A stretch of 64,000 nt of DNA, from NCBI RefSeq assembly GCF_018687785.1, contig NZ_LTBL01000001.1, positions 1,355,780 to 1,419,779 on the forward strand, in the 5' to 3' direction. Made by a program: the position numbers and the translations under genes. Source of the stretch: Methanovulcanius yangii (lineage in GTDB: Archaea > Halobacteriota > Methanomicrobia > Methanomicrobiales > Methanomicrobiaceae). Positions within the stretch are counted from its first letter, which is position 1, and each line of letters opens with the position of its first letter. Of this stretch, positions 44,695 through 54,890 are shown one piece after another. The notes under the pieces were generated by a model, which did not search any database, was not told the origin of the DNA, and saw only the letters and a list, made by a program, of their open reading frames with translations.

Positions 44695-46023
44695 TTACCT
44701 CCCGCTTCCGGGAAGAATGGCATCGAGCCGCTCCATCATCCGGGACACGGCATCCGGGTCATGCCCGCTGCAGAACGAGGTGGAGAGGGTCATATGCCCC
44801 TCAAAGGTTGAGGCCAGAAGAATCGAACCCGGAGGATAGGTTGCAGGCGCCGGGCACCAGACATGGCGGACCGTGACGGGCCCACCCTCCTCTCCCCGGA
44901 AATACGAAGCCACGGCGGAGGGGATGACTCCGGTGTTTGTCAGGATCGGGTTTTTGAGCCACTCGCCGGCGTAAGTCTCACGCATGGCGGCAAAGAGCGG
45001 AGCGACTCCCTCGGATATCCCGGCGAGGTAGGTTTTTTCGTAGAAGACGACCGTCCCGAGCCCGACATGGGAGGCCTTCTTCTCCTGCATGATGTGCGCA
45101 ACGCGGGACAGGATATCCTCAAGTCCGTCCTGTTTCTCTGCAGAGAGGCGCAGTTCATACCCTACCGAGAGATTGCAGATGCTCCGGGGAGGGATACACC
45201 GGAGGTAGCGCCGCAGGTCAAGAGTGCCGAGGAGCCCCAGATCCATGCCATAGAGATCCTCGTTCGCGGTAGCATCAAGAAGCGCGGCAAAGTAGGCGGC
45301 AAGGAGAAGATCATTGAGTGTTGCCCCCCGTTCCCGGGCATACTTCCGCAGAACGATGAACCGTTCGGCAGGGATGTCCAGCCGGGCCCACCGGGGCATG
45401 CTGCGGGAGAGGGACTGACACGGGAACCCCCAGCTTTCGGCAAACGCCGATTCATCTGCATACGCACGTGCACACTCCTCATCCGTGAAACCGGCGCGAA
45501 TCCCTTCTGTCCCCCGCTCCTCCCAGAGTGGATGAATGTCCGGTTCTCTGCCCTCTACCCGTTCGCGATAGCATTCCGCCAGAAGAACGGCTGTCTGGAA
45601 GAGACCATTTGCATCCACCGCAGCATGGTGAATGCTCAGGACAAGCGTATCGGCATGCGCCCTACGGTCACGGAAGAGAGAGAGCCGGATCTGCGGCCCG
45701 GCAAAGGCGTCAATCACCGGAAGGGCATACGTGCCCTCATCCGGCGCGAATGGTTCTTCTGAGAACGAAAACGCCATGTCAACGGAAGAGAGGGGAAGTT
45801 CCTCCCAGTATCCCCGGTCATGACGTTCCACGTACCGGCATCGGAGCACCGGTGCGGCCAGGACCGTGTCCCCGAGGGCTGCCCTGAGGGCTGCCCGGTC
45901 AAGGTGGCCGTCAACCTCGATCACAAGGTGGATCGTCGGGTCATACACCTCGGCGAACCATACGTTCACCACATCAAATGCGGGCGCCGGCCATATTCTG
46001 CCCGCTGCTTCCACCTCAGTCAT
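44695..46023 (-). CDS. Stand-alone condensation-domain (acyltransferase-like) enzyme
   Basis: The 442-residue protein has the chloramphenicol acetyltransferase/condensation fold. The catalytic HHxxxD motif is IHHAAVDANG (His132, His133, Asp137). The N-terminal VWFAEVYDPTIHLVIEVDG and the late LTNTGVIP segment match condensation or alcohol acyltransferase-like proteins. It is a single domain without adenylation or carrier modules, so it may join a CoA- or carrier-bound acyl group to an amine or alcohol. A CAATATAC box lies about 30 bases before the ATG. The product is unknown; MarR and MATE genes follow on the same strand. Confidence 0.72.
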   Translation of the reverse strand: MTEVEAAGRIWPAPAFDVVNVWFAEVYDPTIHLVIEVDGHLDRAALRAALGDTVLAAPVLRCRYVERHDRGYWEELPLSSVDMAFSFSEEPFAPDEGTYALPVIDAFAGPQIRLSLFRDRRAHADTLVLSIHHAAVDANGLFQTAVLLAECYRERVEGREPDIHPLWEERGTEGIRAGFTDEECARAYADESAFAESWGFPCQSLSRSMPRWARLDIPAERFIVLRKYARERGATLNDLLLAAYFAALLDATANEDLYGMDLGLLGTLDLRRYLRCIPPRSICNLSVGYELRLSAEKQDGLEDILSRVAHIMQEKKASHVGLGTVVFYEKTYLAGISEGVAPLFAAMRETYAGEWLKNPILTNTGVIPSAVASYFRGEEGGPVTVRHVWCPAPATYPPGSILLASTFEGHMTLSTSFCSGHDPDAVSRMMERLDAILPGSGR

Positions 46024-46876: not shown

Positions 46877-47731
46877 ATGGGACAAATCAGACAACGCATC
46901 TACGAGATAGTTGAGACACCACGGGACGATGACCGGGCAAGCATTCTCTTTGACATATTTATCGTATCCATGATCTTTCTCTCCATTGCAGGCCTCGTCC
47001 TTGCCAGCATCCATACATTCCTCGAGAACCACTTCTTCCTCATCCTGGGAATCGAACTGCTGACCGGAGTCGTCTTTACCATCGAGTACCTTCTGAGAAT
47101 CTGGGCATGCACGGCAGACCCCGCATATGCCCGACCGGTTACCGGGAGGATACGCTATGCCCTCGGGCTCTTTCAGGTCGTCGACCTCGTTGCCCTGCTC
47201 CCCTATTACCTGGCGCTCTTCTTCCCCTTCAATGTGGAGTTTCTCCGGGTGCTGCGACTGCTGCGTCTTATCAAACTGGGAAAATACTCACGATCGTTCT
47301 CCCTGATGGTGCGGGTGGTCGACCGCAACAAGCAGTCCCTGCTCTCCGCCCTCTCGGTCCTCCTCATCATCCTCGTGATCGCCTCCTCACTCATGTACTA
47401 CGCTGAACACGTTGCCCAGCCCGACGTCTACTCCAGCATCCCCGCGGCGATGTGGTGGGGCCTCATCACCCTTGCCACCGTGGGATATGGCGACATGGTG
47501 CCGATAACCCCGCTTGGAAAAATCCTGGGAGGGGTCATCGCCCTCATTGGTATCGGTGTCTTCGCCCTGCCTGCCGGCATCATAGCATCGGGATTTACCG
47601 AGGTCCTCGAGGAGGAGGAGGAGGAGAAGAGAAAAGCAAAAATGAACAGGAATTCCCCCACATCGCCACGGATTGAGATCTGTCCCCACTGCGGCCGGGA
47701 AATCCGTCCGGAAGACCGCAAGTCCCGTTAA
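46877..47731 (+). CDS. Voltage-gated-type potassium channel
   Basis: The 284-residue protein has six helices. S4 carries regularly spaced Arg (RVLRLLRLIKLGK, about residues 124-136) and the pore has the K+ filter TVGYGD (201-206). After S6 comes an acidic stretch of six Glu, then a tail with a single CPHC pair (Cys269, Cys272). The S4 charges fit a voltage sensor of Kv/ion_trans type. GGGAGAGATAA is the ribosome-binding site. The stop overlaps by 4 bases the convergent nitrogenase-like K gene. The half zinc-knuckle tail is unusual and could dimerise around a metal. Confidence 0.9.
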   Translation: MGQIRQRIYEIVETPRDDDRASILFDIFIVSMIFLSIAGLVLASIHTFLENHFFLILGIELLTGVVFTIEYLLRIWACTADPAYARPVTGRIRYALGLFQVVDLVALLPYYLALFFPFNVEFLRVLRLLRLIKLGKYSRSFSLMVRVVDRNKQSLLSALSVLLIILVIASSLMYYAEHVAQPDVYSSIPAAMWWGLITLATVGYGDMVPITPLGKILGGVIALIGIGVFALPAGIIASGFTEVLEEEEEEKRKAKMNRNSPTSPRIEICPHCGREIRPEDRKSR

Positions 47732-48849
47732 GAGGAGGAGAGGCCGGCTGCAAGGACCCGCTCGATGACCCAGAGTGCCCCTTCTATGCCGGCAAGCGGC
47801 CTGTTGACGAGCATCAGTGACTTCTTCATCGGGAGGGTGACCTGGACCTGCACGGCCGCCGGTGCGAGGGCTCCCTCATAGGCGGACCCGAAGATGATAT
47901 CCGGCGTTGTCCCCTCAAGGCAGGCCCTGACCGACCCGATATCAGGGGCATAGACGATGTCACGCCGATTCTCCGGCGGCACCGTCCGGGACGCCATGAA
48001 GGCAATATCCGCATCGAGGTAGGTGGTGCAGAGATCAGCGATCATCCCGGCATATCCGGCCATCGCAACAACGCCCACCAACGGCGGATCATGCACCCTG
48101 AGATAGCGGTCACAGGCGATGATGATCCGCTCCTCCGCGGCTTCCGCCTCATCCATCACCGGCGTAATATCGGCATCCGGGCAGAGAGAGGAGAGCCGTA
48201 CGAACGCATCCCGAACGTCCGAAAGACCCAGCAATGCCCCTGCGTTCTTCCCGATGCCGGTCGCCATGTCCGGCACAAGGGAGATCGTCACCGGCGCAGG
48301 GTGGCGAACGGAGGCGAGGGTATCGGAGCAGTAGCACGCTGCGACCGGGATGCCCGCCATGGCACAGAGACGTTCTGCCTCACGGCGGTTGCCGGTGGAG
48401 AAGAGATCGGTCGATATGCAGCCGTCCAGATTGACCCCTGGCCGTGACGGGTCGACGACGGGGCTGAGGGCCGCTACGCCACGCCGGAATCCTTCCCCGA
48501 GATCACCCGCGTATCCGGGGGCATCCACAACAACCGCCTGATGATCATCCAGAAACTGCCGGATATCCTCACCGATGGTCGAGGGGACGCATGAATTGAC
48601 CACCGCCACCTGTTCGCAGAGAGGGGAGACCCCCTCGACGACCTCGCGCAGCCGGTCTTCGGTCCCGAAGACCACCTCATGCTCGAGGAGATAGGTGCAG
48701 TTGAGAGGGTCGGGGATGACGGCATCGGCATAGAAGTAACAGGCGGAGGAACCGTGGATGACCACTCCCACACCGTCGACCGCCGCAAGCGCCGATGCCG
48801 CCCCCACCATGGCACAGGGCCAGACCGGGTTCTCACATGGCCTGCCCAT
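47728..48849 (-). CDS. Nitrogenase-like component 1 subunit, NifK/E-like
   Basis: The 373-residue protein is an oxidoreductase/nitrogenase component 1 family member, far shorter than NifK (about 520). C12-AMVGA followed by HGSSAC (Cys37) matches the NifK Cys70 and Cys95 pattern with identical 25-residue spacing. NSCVPSTIGED (Cys87) matches NifK Cys153 with TxxxxIGDD. An extra Cys at position 5 lies next to the first ligand. The ATG at 48849 has GGAGGAGG upstream; the longer frame starts at 48882. It overlaps the D-like gene by 17 bases. It should pair with that subunit and receive electrons from the H-like protein; the substrate is unknown. Confidence 0.8.
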   Translation of the reverse strand: MGRPCENPVWPCAMVGAASALAAVDGVGVVIHGSSACYFYADAVIPDPLNCTYLLEHEVVFGTEDRLREVVEGVSPLCEQVAVVNSCVPSTIGEDIRQFLDDHQAVVVDAPGYAGDLGEGFRRGVAALSPVVDPSRPGVNLDGCISTDLFSTGNRREAERLCAMAGIPVAACYCSDTLASVRHPAPVTISLVPDMATGIGKNAGALLGLSDVRDAFVRLSSLCPDADITPVMDEAEAAEERIIIACDRYLRVHDPPLVGVVAMAGYAGMIADLCTTYLDADIAFMASRTVPPENRRDIVYAPDIGSVRACLEGTTPDIIFGSAYEGALAPAAVQVQVTLPMKKSLMLVNRPLAGIEGALWVIERVLAAGLSSS

Positions 48850-49885
48850 CGATAAACCTCCTCCACTGCCTGAGCATTCCACGGATACCGGATGTCCCGA
48901 CCGGCATACAAAACGGGACGGGGATCACTGTTCCTTCCGGCGCCACGTGTATTTCAAGGTGGGATGCGATCTCCTCGAAGAGATCACTCTCCGCTGACTG
49001 AAACCCGAAATTATCGAAGGTGATACACGCTCCGGCCAGGTCGCTGAAATCATCTGCAAGCTCTTCCTGTCGCGCCTTCTCCTCCCGTATGGCATCGGTC
49101 GCATCGATGCCGGTCAGTCTGCCTGCCTCCCCGAGAAACGCAATCGTTCCGGCAAGTCCTGCCGGAAACGAGGATATTGACGGGGTGCCGGTGAGAGCAT
49201 CGAAATGACGGGAGAGGGTGCCCTGCGGGTCTTCCCGCATCACGTTCAGGCATCCCGCACCCATACCACGGATATCTTCCGGAGAGACGTTCCGGACGAA
49301 CCGGACATTGACCTCAAGGCCAAGGGCCTCCAGGAGACGTGCCACCTCGGCATGGTTGGCCTCCACCTCGAACTCGAGGTTCTTCTCCCCGATCAGGTTC
49401 ACCCCTCCGTCGCGGGACACCGATGGTTCGATGAAATCTGAGAGGGCGAAAAGAGCGCTTGCGTATCCGGAGTGAAACGTTCCGCCAAGAAAACCCGAGC
49501 TTTCGATATGCACCACAGGTACATCCCAGTCCCTTGCGCAGACCGCCGCCGTATCATCCCCGATGGTTTCGGTGACGCAGGTCGATATGACGCAGACGGC
49601 CGACGGCCCCCCTTCGGCAGCAAAGGAAATGGCATCCGCCAGTGCCTCCTCTCCCCCGAAGATTACCTCCTCTTCCCCAAGCCCGCTCGATATGATCCGG
49701 GGTATGGTATAGATGTCGTGCTCGAGGAGAGTGGTGTGCAAAAGCGAGGTATTGATATGGGTACATCCGTCCGGACCGTGGACGATTGTTACCGCGTCAT
49801 TCAGAAAGGCGCTCACGGAAAGCGCCCCCATAACGGTACAGCCTTCAAACCGGGATGTGCTTTCTGGCAAGTGCTTCGAGTTCAT
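48833..49885 (-). CDS. Nitrogenase-like component 1 subunit, NifD-like
   Basis: The 350-residue protein belongs to the nitrogenase component 1 family. Cys16 (FEGCTVMGA), Cys41 (IVHGPDGC) and Cys103 ([11 protein letters not shown]) match NifD Cys62, Cys88 (HGPVGC) and Cys154, with spacings of 25 and 62 against 26 and 66. This keeps the ligands for a P-cluster-like or shared [4Fe-4S] centre. Cys212 (GAGCLNVM) lies roughly where NifD has its cofactor cysteine, but this alignment is uncertain and the cofactor His is not obvious. The protein lacks CfbD-type HPRPSPI. The ATG at 49885 has GGAG upstream and overlaps the H gene by 41 bases. Confidence 0.8.
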
Positions 49886-50660
49886 GCATCTCCAGCGGAG
49901 TCGGGATGGACGTTTCGGTGTTGGTCTGTATTGTCTCGGCAAGATGCCGGTACACTGCCGCCTGCGCCGAATCAGGGGCAAACTCGATGACCGTCTGCTG
50001 GTTGACTTCAGCAACCTGCACGACCCCGTCACGTGGGATGTAGGCGATGAGGCGCGACCCCACCATATCGGCAAATTCCCGTACAAGCTCCTCTTCCCCG
50101 GGAATATTCTTGGCATTGCAGATCACGCCGCCCAGTGCGCATTTGGCCTTGCTTCTTTTTGAGAGGCGTGCTATGGCCTTGCAGATATTATTGGCCGCAT
50201 AGAGGGACATGAACTCCCCGGATGTGACGAGATAGATCTCCTGCGCATACCCCTCCCGCATTGGCATGGCAAATCCGCCGCAGACCACATCACCGAGCAC
50301 ATCATAGACAATGACATCCCCGTAGAGGGCATCGAGTTTCTGGAGGAGCTGAAACGTGGCAATGATCCCGCGGCCCGCACAGCCGATGCCGGGGTCGGGA
50401 CCCCCCGCCTCGACGCACCGTATTCCGCCGTACCCCTCGAAAACCACCTCATCAACCCCGATCCTGTCCCCTTTTTCCCGGACAAGATCCAGAACTGTCG
50501 GAATCCACTCCCCGTGCATCAGCATTCTCGTACTGTCATGCTTCGGGTCGCACCCGATCTGCATCACATCGCAGCCGGTGTCAGCGAGGGCTGCCGAGAG
50601 ATTTGCCGAGGTAGTGGATTTTCCAATGCCACCCTTTCCATACAGGGCGATTTGTTTCAT
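49845..50660 (-). CDS. Nitrogenase iron protein-like ATPase (NifH/CfbC/BchL family)
   Basis: The 271-residue protein has the complete NifH core. The P-loop is GKGGIGKST (residues 9-17), switch I is GCDPKHDST, and Cys94 (GIGCAGRG) and Cys127 (VVCGGFAMP) are ligands for the [4Fe-4S] cluster shared by two monomers. The Arg of CAGRG is also present. It should hydrolyse MgATP and pass single electrons to the D/K-like complex. It is first in the operon, with a TATA box about 25 bases before the ATG, so the transcript is probably leaderless. Family resemblance alone fits CfbC too, but the two partner genes here are not CfbD-like. Confidence 0.88.
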
Positions 50661-52876: not shown

Positions 52877-53278
52877 TCACCTGTTGACCCAGAGATTGTG
52901 AATGTTACAGCATTCAAATGCCTTCACTTCGGTGTCGACGCCGGGGAAGAACGCCTCGGGGGCATCGCCGGGTTTGAGATAATGGATCATCACATCCCGC
53001 CCCTTCTGGACCGCAATCCACATGATATAATGCTCCTCCTCCATCGGATGGGCGGTCGAACCCACCTTTACCTTGATGCCTCCTTCTGCCTTTTCGACGA
53101 TCGGAACATGCTTCTGGGTGGCCGGATCCGCAATCTGCTCCTCGAGAAGATCCATCTCGGTTCCGGCACAGGAGACCGATAGTGCATCCGGTGTCGGGGC
53201 CTTGCACATCAGCGCATCCATTGCCATGATGGTGCCGTTGCACCCCTTGCATTTGAAAAATAATAGTTTCTCATCCAT
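52877..53278 (-). CDS. Superoxide reductase (desulfoferrodoxin/methanoferrodoxin-like)
   Basis: The 133-residue protein has the SOR catalytic domain: KHVP (His57), AHPMEEEHYI (His77, His83), and CCNIHNLW (Cys124, His127) form the square-pyramidal iron site. The N-terminal part has CKGC (Cys10, Cys13), then Cys25 and Cys37, but not the adjacent Cys-Cys pair of a desulforedoxin centre; the expected pair reads Ser-Cys. This is closer to methanoferrodoxin of Methanosarcina, described with a [4Fe-4S] cluster, than to classic desulfoferrodoxin. Gln55 replaces the usual Glu before Lys-His. It reduces superoxide to peroxide and follows FprA and rubredoxin in one operon. Confidence 0.85.
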   Translation of the reverse strand: MDEKLLFFKCKGCNGTIMAMDALMCKAPTPDALSVSCAGTEMDLLEEQIADPATQKHVPIVEKAEGGIKVKVGSTAHPMEEEHYIMWIAVQKGRDVMIHYLKPGDAPEAFFPGVDTEVKAFECCNIHNLWVNR

Positions 53279-53291
53279 AAGGATCTCTCCC

Positions 53292-54476
53292 TCAGACGAG
53301 GGAATGATCCTGATGGCGTTTATAGATTTCCCCCGCAAGACGGGCAATGGCGACATTGGTCTCCTCGTCGGATTTCCCCTTTACATAGACGGGGTCGAGC
53401 ATCTCCGCATCCACCTTGGCAAGCATCGCGGTGAGGTCTTCGACCGTCTTTCCACCCCACCCGTAGGACCCGATCACCCCGATCCATTTTGCGCGGGGTT
53501 TGAGGAGATTGGTGATAAAGGCAACATGTGCCGCCTTTGGGTGAGGACCAAAGAGCATCGTCGGAGCACCGAGAATGATCGTTGCCGCATCGACCAGATC
53601 ATAGGCAACCTGCCCCGGTTCGCAGCGGCCGAGATCGTACGGGCGCACCTCGATGCCGCGCTCGATGAGATGTTCCACAAGGCGGACCACCATCTCACGG
53701 GTACTCCCGTGCATCGAGACATAGGGAATGACGACGAGGTTTTTCACTTCATCGGAGGTCCAATCCTCGTATAAATCGAGAATGCCGGCGGGGGCCCGAT
53801 GGAGGGGGCCATGGCTTGGTGCAATGATGGCCGGTCCCAGCGCACGTACCCGGGCTGTGTATTCCCCGACCTTCTTTCTGAACGGCTGCATGATCTCCGC
53901 ATAGTACTGCCTCGCGGCCACCTGATAGCGGCAGGAGGCATCGCCAAAGAGTGAGCTTGATGCAATGTGGGCACCGAAGAGATCGCAGGAGAAGAGAATC
54001 TTATCCTCCTCGAGATAGGTCATCATCGTCTCCGGCCAGTGAACCCATGGAGTGCTCAGGAACGTGAGGGTCTTATTTCCCAGTGAGAGGGTGTCGCCTT
54101 CGCCGACCACCATGACACGTTCGGGCGGGACATGGTGGAGGCTGCCGCAGAGATCCCGTCCCTTCTCCGTCGTCACGACCACAGCCTGCGGAAAGAGCTC
54201 GAGAACCAGGGGGAGCGACCCGGAATGATCCTGTTCTGCATGATTGACGACGATATAATCGATGGATGTGAGACCGGCACGGACGAGATTGCTGATGTAG
54301 GTCTCCTCGAAGTCGGAGTCTACCGTATCGATGAGGGCGGTCTTCTCCGAACCACGGACGACGTATGCATTGTAGCTCGTCCCGTCATTCAGCCTCATCA
54401 GCTCATCGAAGACGGCACGATCCCAGTCGATAACACCCACGCTGTAGACGTCGGGAACAATTTCGCGGGCTGCCAT
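53292..54476 (-). CDS. fprA: FprA-family A-type flavoprotein (F420H2:O2 oxidase-like)
   Basis: The 394-residue protein has an N-terminal MBL-type di-iron domain (NHAEQDHSGSLP: His79, Glu81, Asp83, His84) and a C-terminal flavodoxin domain binding FMN (VIPYVSMHGSTREM). In methanogens such enzymes reduce O2 to water using F420H2, protecting the cell. Length fits the family (about 400). The ATG at 54476 lies just after the rubredoxin stop; the longer frame upstream is the rubredoxin region in another frame. The superoxide reductase gene follows 13 bases downstream. Confidence 0.92.
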   Translation of the reverse strand: MAAREIVPDVYSVGVIDWDRAVFDELMRLNDGTSYNAYVVRGSEKTALIDTVDSDFEETYISNLVRAGLTSIDYIVVNHAEQDHSGSLPLVLELFPQAVVVTTEKGRDLCGSLHHVPPERVMVVGEGDTLSLGNKTLTFLSTPWVHWPETMMTYLEEDKILFSCDLFGAHIASSSLFGDASCRYQVAARQYYAEIMQPFRKKVGEYTARVRALGPAIIAPSHGPLHRAPAGILDLYEDWTSDEVKNLVVIPYVSMHGSTREMVVRLVEHLIERGIEVRPYDLGRCEPGQVAYDLVDAATIILGAPTMLFGPHPKAAHVAFITNLLKPRAKWIGVIGSYGWGGKTVEDLTAMLAKVDAEMLDPVYVKGKSDEETNVAIARLAGEIYKRHQDHSLV

Positions 54477-54477
54477 C

Positions 54478-54642
54478 TCAGGACATCTCCCTGAAGTTCT
54501 TCTTCTCCGCACCGCAGATCGGGCAGTGCCATGCATCCGGCAGATCCTCAAACGCAATTCCGGGTTCTACATCGGTCCGCTTTTTGGACGGGTCATATAC
54601 ATGACCGCATATCTGGCATTTCATCTTCCGCATCGTGCTCAT
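54478..54642 (-). CDS. Rubredoxin
   Basis: The 54-residue protein has the two rubredoxin knuckles CQICGHVYDP and CPICGAEK, which bind a single iron with four Cys. It carries electrons, probably to the FprA and superoxide reductase downstream. The ATG at 54642 follows GGAGGGAAATGAC. It is the first gene of a rubredoxin, FprA, SOR operon, a compact oxygen-defence unit. Confidence 0.93.
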   Translation of the reverse strand: MSTMRKMKCQICGHVYDPSKKRTDVEPGIAFEDLPDAWHCPICGAEKKNFREMS

Positions 54643-54890
54643 GTCATTTCCCTCCGTCAGAGGGCTGCCGTCCCGTGCATCCGTACAGGAAAGGCCGTAT
54701 CCGGCCGTCAGGGAGGCAGTCGCACAGGATAATTGCAACCCGGCAATATTAGACATTCGCATTCACCGGACATCACGCACCCTGTAGTGGCCGGTACGGG
54801 CCTGGGGATGCCATGCCGGCAGGGGGTGGTGTCCCCCGCCGCAACATGCATATATGGATGAGGCATAGAAGGGATGCGAGGTCACCGCCG

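Follow-up and report, generated by a model that had tools for sequence, protein, structure and literature searches.

Diverse nitrogenase-like proteins devoid of the ligands of the iron–molybdenum cofactor (FeMoco), H-E fusions included, were documented by Dos Santos et al. 2012 (PMC3464626), where fusions of an Fe protein with an alpha-type subunit (H-D fusions) accompanied by a beta-type subunit K are also mentioned, unnamed; the general kind is already known. The described systems with which the subject of this work was compared include nitrogenase itself (NifDK) and its scaffold NifEN, the Mar and Isr enzymes, dark-operative protochlorophyllide oxidoreductase (DPOR, BchLNB), chlorophyllide oxidoreductase (COR, BchYZ), and CfbCD of coenzyme F430 biosynthesis. 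The operon considered here was found in a 64,000-nucleotide stretch of the Methanovulcanius yangii genome (contig NZ_LTBL01000001.1, positions 1,355,780 to 1,419,779; hereinafter, the window) and is referred to as H-D-K after its genes for a NifH-type Fe protein (H) and two component-1 subunits (D and K, jointly DK). It is not described in the available parts of the reports dealing with Mar (PMC12552129), Isr (PMC11423573), and CfbD, group VI, and activation of methyl-coenzyme M reductase (MCR; PMC12176620). What is new is a second nitrogenase-like reductase, of the two-subunit type, present in nearly all Methanomicrobiales besides the F430-making enzyme; its predicted substrate is most likely a tetrapyrrole.

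All three open reading frames of the operon (47728-50660, minus strand) are intact. Their re-derivation from the open reading frames and Pfam matches returned the arrangement described in the original prediction, i.e., a NifH-like protein followed by two component-1 proteins of the same sizes, overlapping and in the order H-D-K (Table 1). The family assignment is not a matter of chance, because the Pfam E-values are extremely low for all three proteins. The cluster cysteines reported earlier were found at the same positions (16, 41, and 103 in D; 12, 37, and 87 in K), along with the HGPDGC and HGSSAC blocks, and neither triad is lost among close relatives: both are invariant, in 56/56 D and 52/52 K aligned sequences. 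Of the further cysteines, Cys5 of K is nearly invariant (51 of 52 sequences) and Cys116 of D is retained in most sequences (50 of 56), and the P-loop together with both 4Fe-4S cysteine motifs is present in all 100 H relatives (100/100). The same-strand overlap of H and D recurs in 89 of 92 loci and likely brings about translational coupling; D and K overlap in 56 of 76 loci, and in 13 loci K is located nearby on the opposite strand.

Table 1. Features of the H-D-K operon and of its surroundings in the window (positions are those of the window)
Feature	Position	Strand	Details
H, NifH-type ATP-dependent Fe protein	49845-50660	-	271 amino acids; Pfam NifH 2e-107
D, component-1 alpha-type subunit	48833-49885	-	ATG start; 350 amino acids; PF00148 3.5e-51
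K, component-1 beta-type subunit	47728-48849	-	ATG start; 373 amino acids; PF00148 6e-26; three domains
H/D reading-frame overlap	49845-49885	-	41 bp
D/K reading-frame overlap	48833-48849	-	17 bp
Rubredoxin, FprA-type flavodiiron-like protein, desulfoferrodoxin	52877-54762	-	upstream of TrkH and the operon
Protein weakly resembling condensation-domain or PapA5-type acyltransferases	44695-46023	-	442 amino acids

The placement of the subunits was inspected in a component-1 tree of 62 sequences, where D and K each form a clade of their own (support 100/99 and 100/100, respectively), distinct from NifD/E, NifK/N, MarD, MarK, CfbD, BchN, BchB, and a solitary NifD-like family. D belongs to the alpha side, where it is joined by BchN and the D portion of the H-D fusion proteins (98/92), and K belongs to the beta side, weakly grouping with K of the fusion systems (83/48). 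Profile scores agree with this picture: D (48 bits) and K (32 bits) fail the CfbD cut-off of 268, and both score far below all Nif cut-offs; D reaches 26-56 bits vs the BchN and BchB cut-offs of 324-912, BchN and BchB being separate clades of which BchN joins D only deeper in the tree. COR was compared by the hidden Markov model score (for D, 43 bits with BchZ vs the cut-off of 529, and no match to BchY), the inspected stretch of a photosynthesis plasmid having yielded only BchNB; the tree itself covers the families named above. This tree, with NifD, BchN, MarD, and CfbD among its references as proposed in the original prediction, places both subunits outside every characterized clade sampled, and the conclusion that D and K are nested inside none of these clades is a solid one. 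The deep branching order beyond the two clades is not settled by approximately unbiased (AU) tests, which rejected the union with CfbD neither for D (p 0.099) nor for K (p 0.37).

The AlphaFold2 monomer models were of high confidence (mean predicted local distance difference test score 90.0 for D and 92.9 for K). The structures closest to D are MarD (9d9u, TM 0.72) and BchB (TM about 0.7); those closest to K are the NifEN, BchB, and NifK chains (TM about 0.8). The shortness of D results from the lack of about half of its third domain, K being nearly full length: the last domain of D comprises two strands and two helices, its counterpart in K about twice as much, and D, when aligned to NifD by profile, leaves roughly 90 residues of domain III uncovered. 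In NifD, this region bears the cofactor histidine. At the C275 column, occupied by cysteine in NifD, NifE, and MarD, D has no cysteine. Since D is deprived of both this ligand-type cysteine and half of domain III, chemistry of the cofactor type (N2 reduction, C-S cleavage) is disfavored. At the same time, Arg217 of D, adjoining the C275 column, is invariant (56/56), as are other charged residues (R12, R183, R195, E167, and E171 of D; R160, R288, and E157 of K), suggesting a putative site for a ligand, which may be acidic.

The protein H is the sole Fe protein of the genome, other matches being weak. Component-1 proteins are represented by three entries only, D, K, and a true CfbD encoded about 0.8 Mb away at a locus without a reductase gene of its own. 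H passes the cut-off of the NCBI CfbC model NF033200 (420 bits vs 402), a threshold passed also by cfbD-linked CfbC proteins of other families. Outside Methanomicrobiales CfbC typically adjoins CfbD; in this order, it is the D-linked H that scores above the CfbC cut-off. Being the only Fe protein, CfbC-like by score, and facing a CfbD encoded elsewhere without a reductase, H should serve both partners; by elimination from gene content, it probably drives CfbD as well as DK. H would thus not be a private subunit of DK. Displacement of an ancestral CfbC by H was also considered and abandoned: H adjoined NifH in the first H tree, its position shifted when fewer rows were used, and joining H with the CfbC clade was not rejected by the AU test (p 0.095).

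The distribution of D is remarkably narrow. An orthologue, counting only D matches well above the paralogue level and leaving out CfbD and paralogue matches, was found in 57 of the 60 relatives (one as a contig-end fragment), the remaining three being incomplete or fragmented assemblies. Across 392 genomes sampled from the phylum, 95/98 of those of the order and 0/294 of the others yielded a strong match to D (E < 1e-100); the best matches in the latter (E about 1e-55) belonged to other families. Within this sample, D is thus restricted to Methanomicrobiales. Among the 79 top loci of a scan across 84,980 species, those given with a lineage were again from Methanomicrobiales, some being given only as Euryarchaeota.

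Three genomes of the order (G375, G357, and G174) possess H and lack both D and K. The gene order in G375 and G357 is FprA, PRK, H, and a gene of the 137-amino-acid type (see below), i.e., the usual synteny of the order minus TrkH, D, and K, TrkH and PRK being variable at several DK-bearing loci too. In G174, it is FprA, desulfoferrodoxin, TrkH, H, and a homologue of the 137-amino-acid-type gene, with one Fe protein and one component-1 match, the latter in the size and match range of CfbD. The retained neighborhood favors loss over primary absence. As H is kept there in the absence of D and K, DK is dispensable for F430 in these genomes.

Overall, H-D-K is tentatively regarded, with a confidence just short of even, as an ATP-driven reductase for a bulky organic substrate, most likely a tetrapyrrole, sharing H with CfbD. 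For the electron path, the cluster type, the heterotetramer, the sharing of H, and the tetrapyrrole substrate, the following scheme can be inferred. H would operate as an ATP-dependent homodimer carrying a 4Fe-4S cluster, passing low-potential electrons singly to DK. The latter would be a (DK)2 heterotetramer in which three cysteines of D and three of K hold an Fe-S cluster at the interface. As with DPOR and CfbCD, no nitrogenase cofactor would take part: in an open D/K cavity, the electrons would be transferred directly to the bulky organic substrate. The substrate would most likely be F430 in a modified or damaged form, or else a related tetrapyrrole containing Ni or Co, and H would also supply the separately encoded CfbD. 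A tetrapyrrole is favored because the sole Fe protein is CfbC-like, because cofactor chemistry is disfavored, and, weakly, because of the tree neighbors of D. From the original prediction, a heteromeric nitrogenase-type component 1 outside the known clades is therefore retained; C-S and nitrogenase-cofactor-type chemistry is disfavored; and, of the substrates it listed, the tetrapyrrole is seemingly the best supported.

Several points weigh against this assignment. Neither Methanospirillum nor any methanogen outside the order needs DK to make F430. No gene for a substrate or pathway is linked to the operon among the conserved neighbors, and those that are conserved (FprA, desulfoferrodoxin, TrkH, PRK) remain where DK is gone, so they tell little. 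BchN sits on a long branch, which makes its grouping with D weak evidence for a tetrapyrrole, and the AU tests do not fix the deep branching order. Since both other methanogens and the DK-less genomes manage without DK, DK is unlikely to catalyze a step of F430 biosynthesis proper; its substrate may be a modified or damaged F430 or a corrinoid. A narrower variant, judged quite unlikely, makes DK a second F430-directed reductase sharing its Fe protein with CfbD, which would either repair oxidized or altered F430 (e.g., its ring-dehydrogenated form) or make an order-specific variant of it. This variant fits the sharing of H, the lack of a nitrogenase cofactor, the FprA/desulfoferrodoxin/rubredoxin neighborhood, and the dispensability in Methanospirillum. 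Air-oxidized forms of F430 exist; a search for oxidized F430 forms among the papers available returned nothing.

Other functions can be envisaged for DK. Reduction of a metal complex (a corrinoid, heme, or metallophore), as may be carried out by the H-D fusion systems with FecCD/ABC transporters, is an unlikely option which draws on the position of the fusion-protein D part among the nearest relatives of D, on the FecCD permease and ABC ATPase of the fusion operons, and on a similar transporter in the HDK operon of Sporomusa. However, no such transporter adjoins the operon in the window or is conserved at the relatives' loci, the grouping of K with the fusion K is weak, and Methanospirillum hungatei harbors a fusion system and no DK, so by such evidence the two are not interchangeable. 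A NifEN-like metallocluster scaffold, holding or modifying the [8Fe-9S-C] cluster made by NifB, e.g., for McrC/Mmp7 of the MCR activation complex, is improbable to about the same extent as the F430-directed variant. The genome encodes a NifB above the family cut-off and no nitrogenase, K is structurally near the NifEN and NifK chains, and [8Fe-9S-C] clusters are reported in the MCR activation complex (PMC12176620). Yet the cysteine of the C275 column conserved in NifE is missing from D together with half of domain III, MCR is activated without DK in other methanogens, and the three genomes of the order mentioned above do without it.

The same two deficiencies of D count against cleavage of C-S, C-N, or similar bonds of small molecules, a very unlikely function suggested by the best structural match of D, MarD, and by the chemistry of Mar and Isr, group IV enzymes (PMC12552129, PMC11423573). 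MarD does have the C275-column cysteine, MarD and MarK are located in separate clades, and neither a radical S-adenosylmethionine maturase nor a sulfur-assimilation gene is linked at the loci. Finally, DK could be a regulator or an electron reservoir controlling the supply of H to CfbD instead of a catalyst. The apparent sharing of H and the H-D overlap coupling their expression conform to this; still, the many invariant charged residues listed above, distant from the cluster cysteines, suggest a ligand site, and no precedent is known; this function hardly merits credence.

The neighbors recurring at the relatives' loci include FprA, desulfoferrodoxin, PRK, TrkH, and LeuC/LeuD/isopropylmalate dehydrogenase. 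In the window, the rubredoxin, FprA-type, and desulfoferrodoxin genes (Table 1) make up a conserved oxygen-defense neighborhood. The comparison of gene neighbors proposed in the original prediction thus revealed conserved synteny and no link to a substrate or pathway. The use of neighbor genes as a guide to the substrate was given up, since the upstream genes are still present in loci without DK, which signifies synteny and is no proof of a pathway. A protein of the 137-amino-acid type (L109:12311-12727, plus strand; homologues in 26 loci) has no Pfam match; its gene immediately follows K in many loci and follows H just as closely where DK is missing. The acyltransferase-like protein of 442 amino acids (Table 1) is unusual for a methanogen.

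The survey also brought to light other nitrogenase-like genes. The solitary NifD-like family (about 390-426 amino acids; L141:4430-5617, minus strand, and L143, L144, L145, L146, L148, and L150) has three P-cluster-type cysteines and a cysteine at the NifD C275 column, with no K partner seen; in L141 its gene adjoins cfbB, cfbD, and cfbE, and in L150 its neighbors are cbiB and a NifH. It could represent a homomeric nitrogenase relative with a cofactor ligand. In a genome of the order (G041, L147), at least three Mar-like D genes are situated close together, two of them with a K seen beside; the stretch also contains one Mar-type H. The H-D fusion and K loci (L136, L137, L138, and L139) belong to Methanosarcina-like genomes and some Methanomicrobiales; in L136 and L139, the loci scanned for this, FecCD permease and ABC ATPase genes are situated upstream.

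The Methanomicrobiales, which are important in wetlands, digesters, and guts, keep an ATP-costly nitrogenase-type reductase almost without exception. If its Fe protein is shared with the F430-making enzyme, H-D-K bears on the supply of F430. The question is testable given the natural DK-less genomes and the report that Methanoculleus thermophilus is genetically accessible (PMC9081873). Moreover, an alpha-type subunit with no cofactor ligand and half a domain helps to map the change of substrate across the superfamily.

Compared with the known systems, DK displays the P-cluster-type cysteine spacing and the fold of NifDK and NifEN, with all six cysteines in place, but D lacks the C275 equivalent and the cofactor-histidine region, and the clades are separate. 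MarHDK has the same H-D-K architecture, the six cluster cysteines, and the structure most similar to D, differing in the extra cysteine at the C275 column, the full domain III, and the separate clades of MarD and MarK. DPOR is likewise a three-gene system of H, alpha, and beta components without a large cofactor, and BchN groups with D; BchB, in contrast to K with its three cysteines, is devoid of the full triad, and chlorophyll genes are absent here. The H-D fusion systems, carried by some genomes of the order in addition to H-D-K, include near tree relatives of D, lack most FeMoco ligands, and are distributed in archaea; unlike the operon, they combine H and D in one frame (728-746 amino acids), with a full-length D and a transporter attached. 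CfbD differs from DK as a homodimer of a single subunit with two fully conserved cysteines (C34 and C89 in L118) vs three each in D and K, whereas CfbCD resembles H-D-K in an H above the CfbC cut-off, in compact catalytic subunits, and in having no large cofactor expected.

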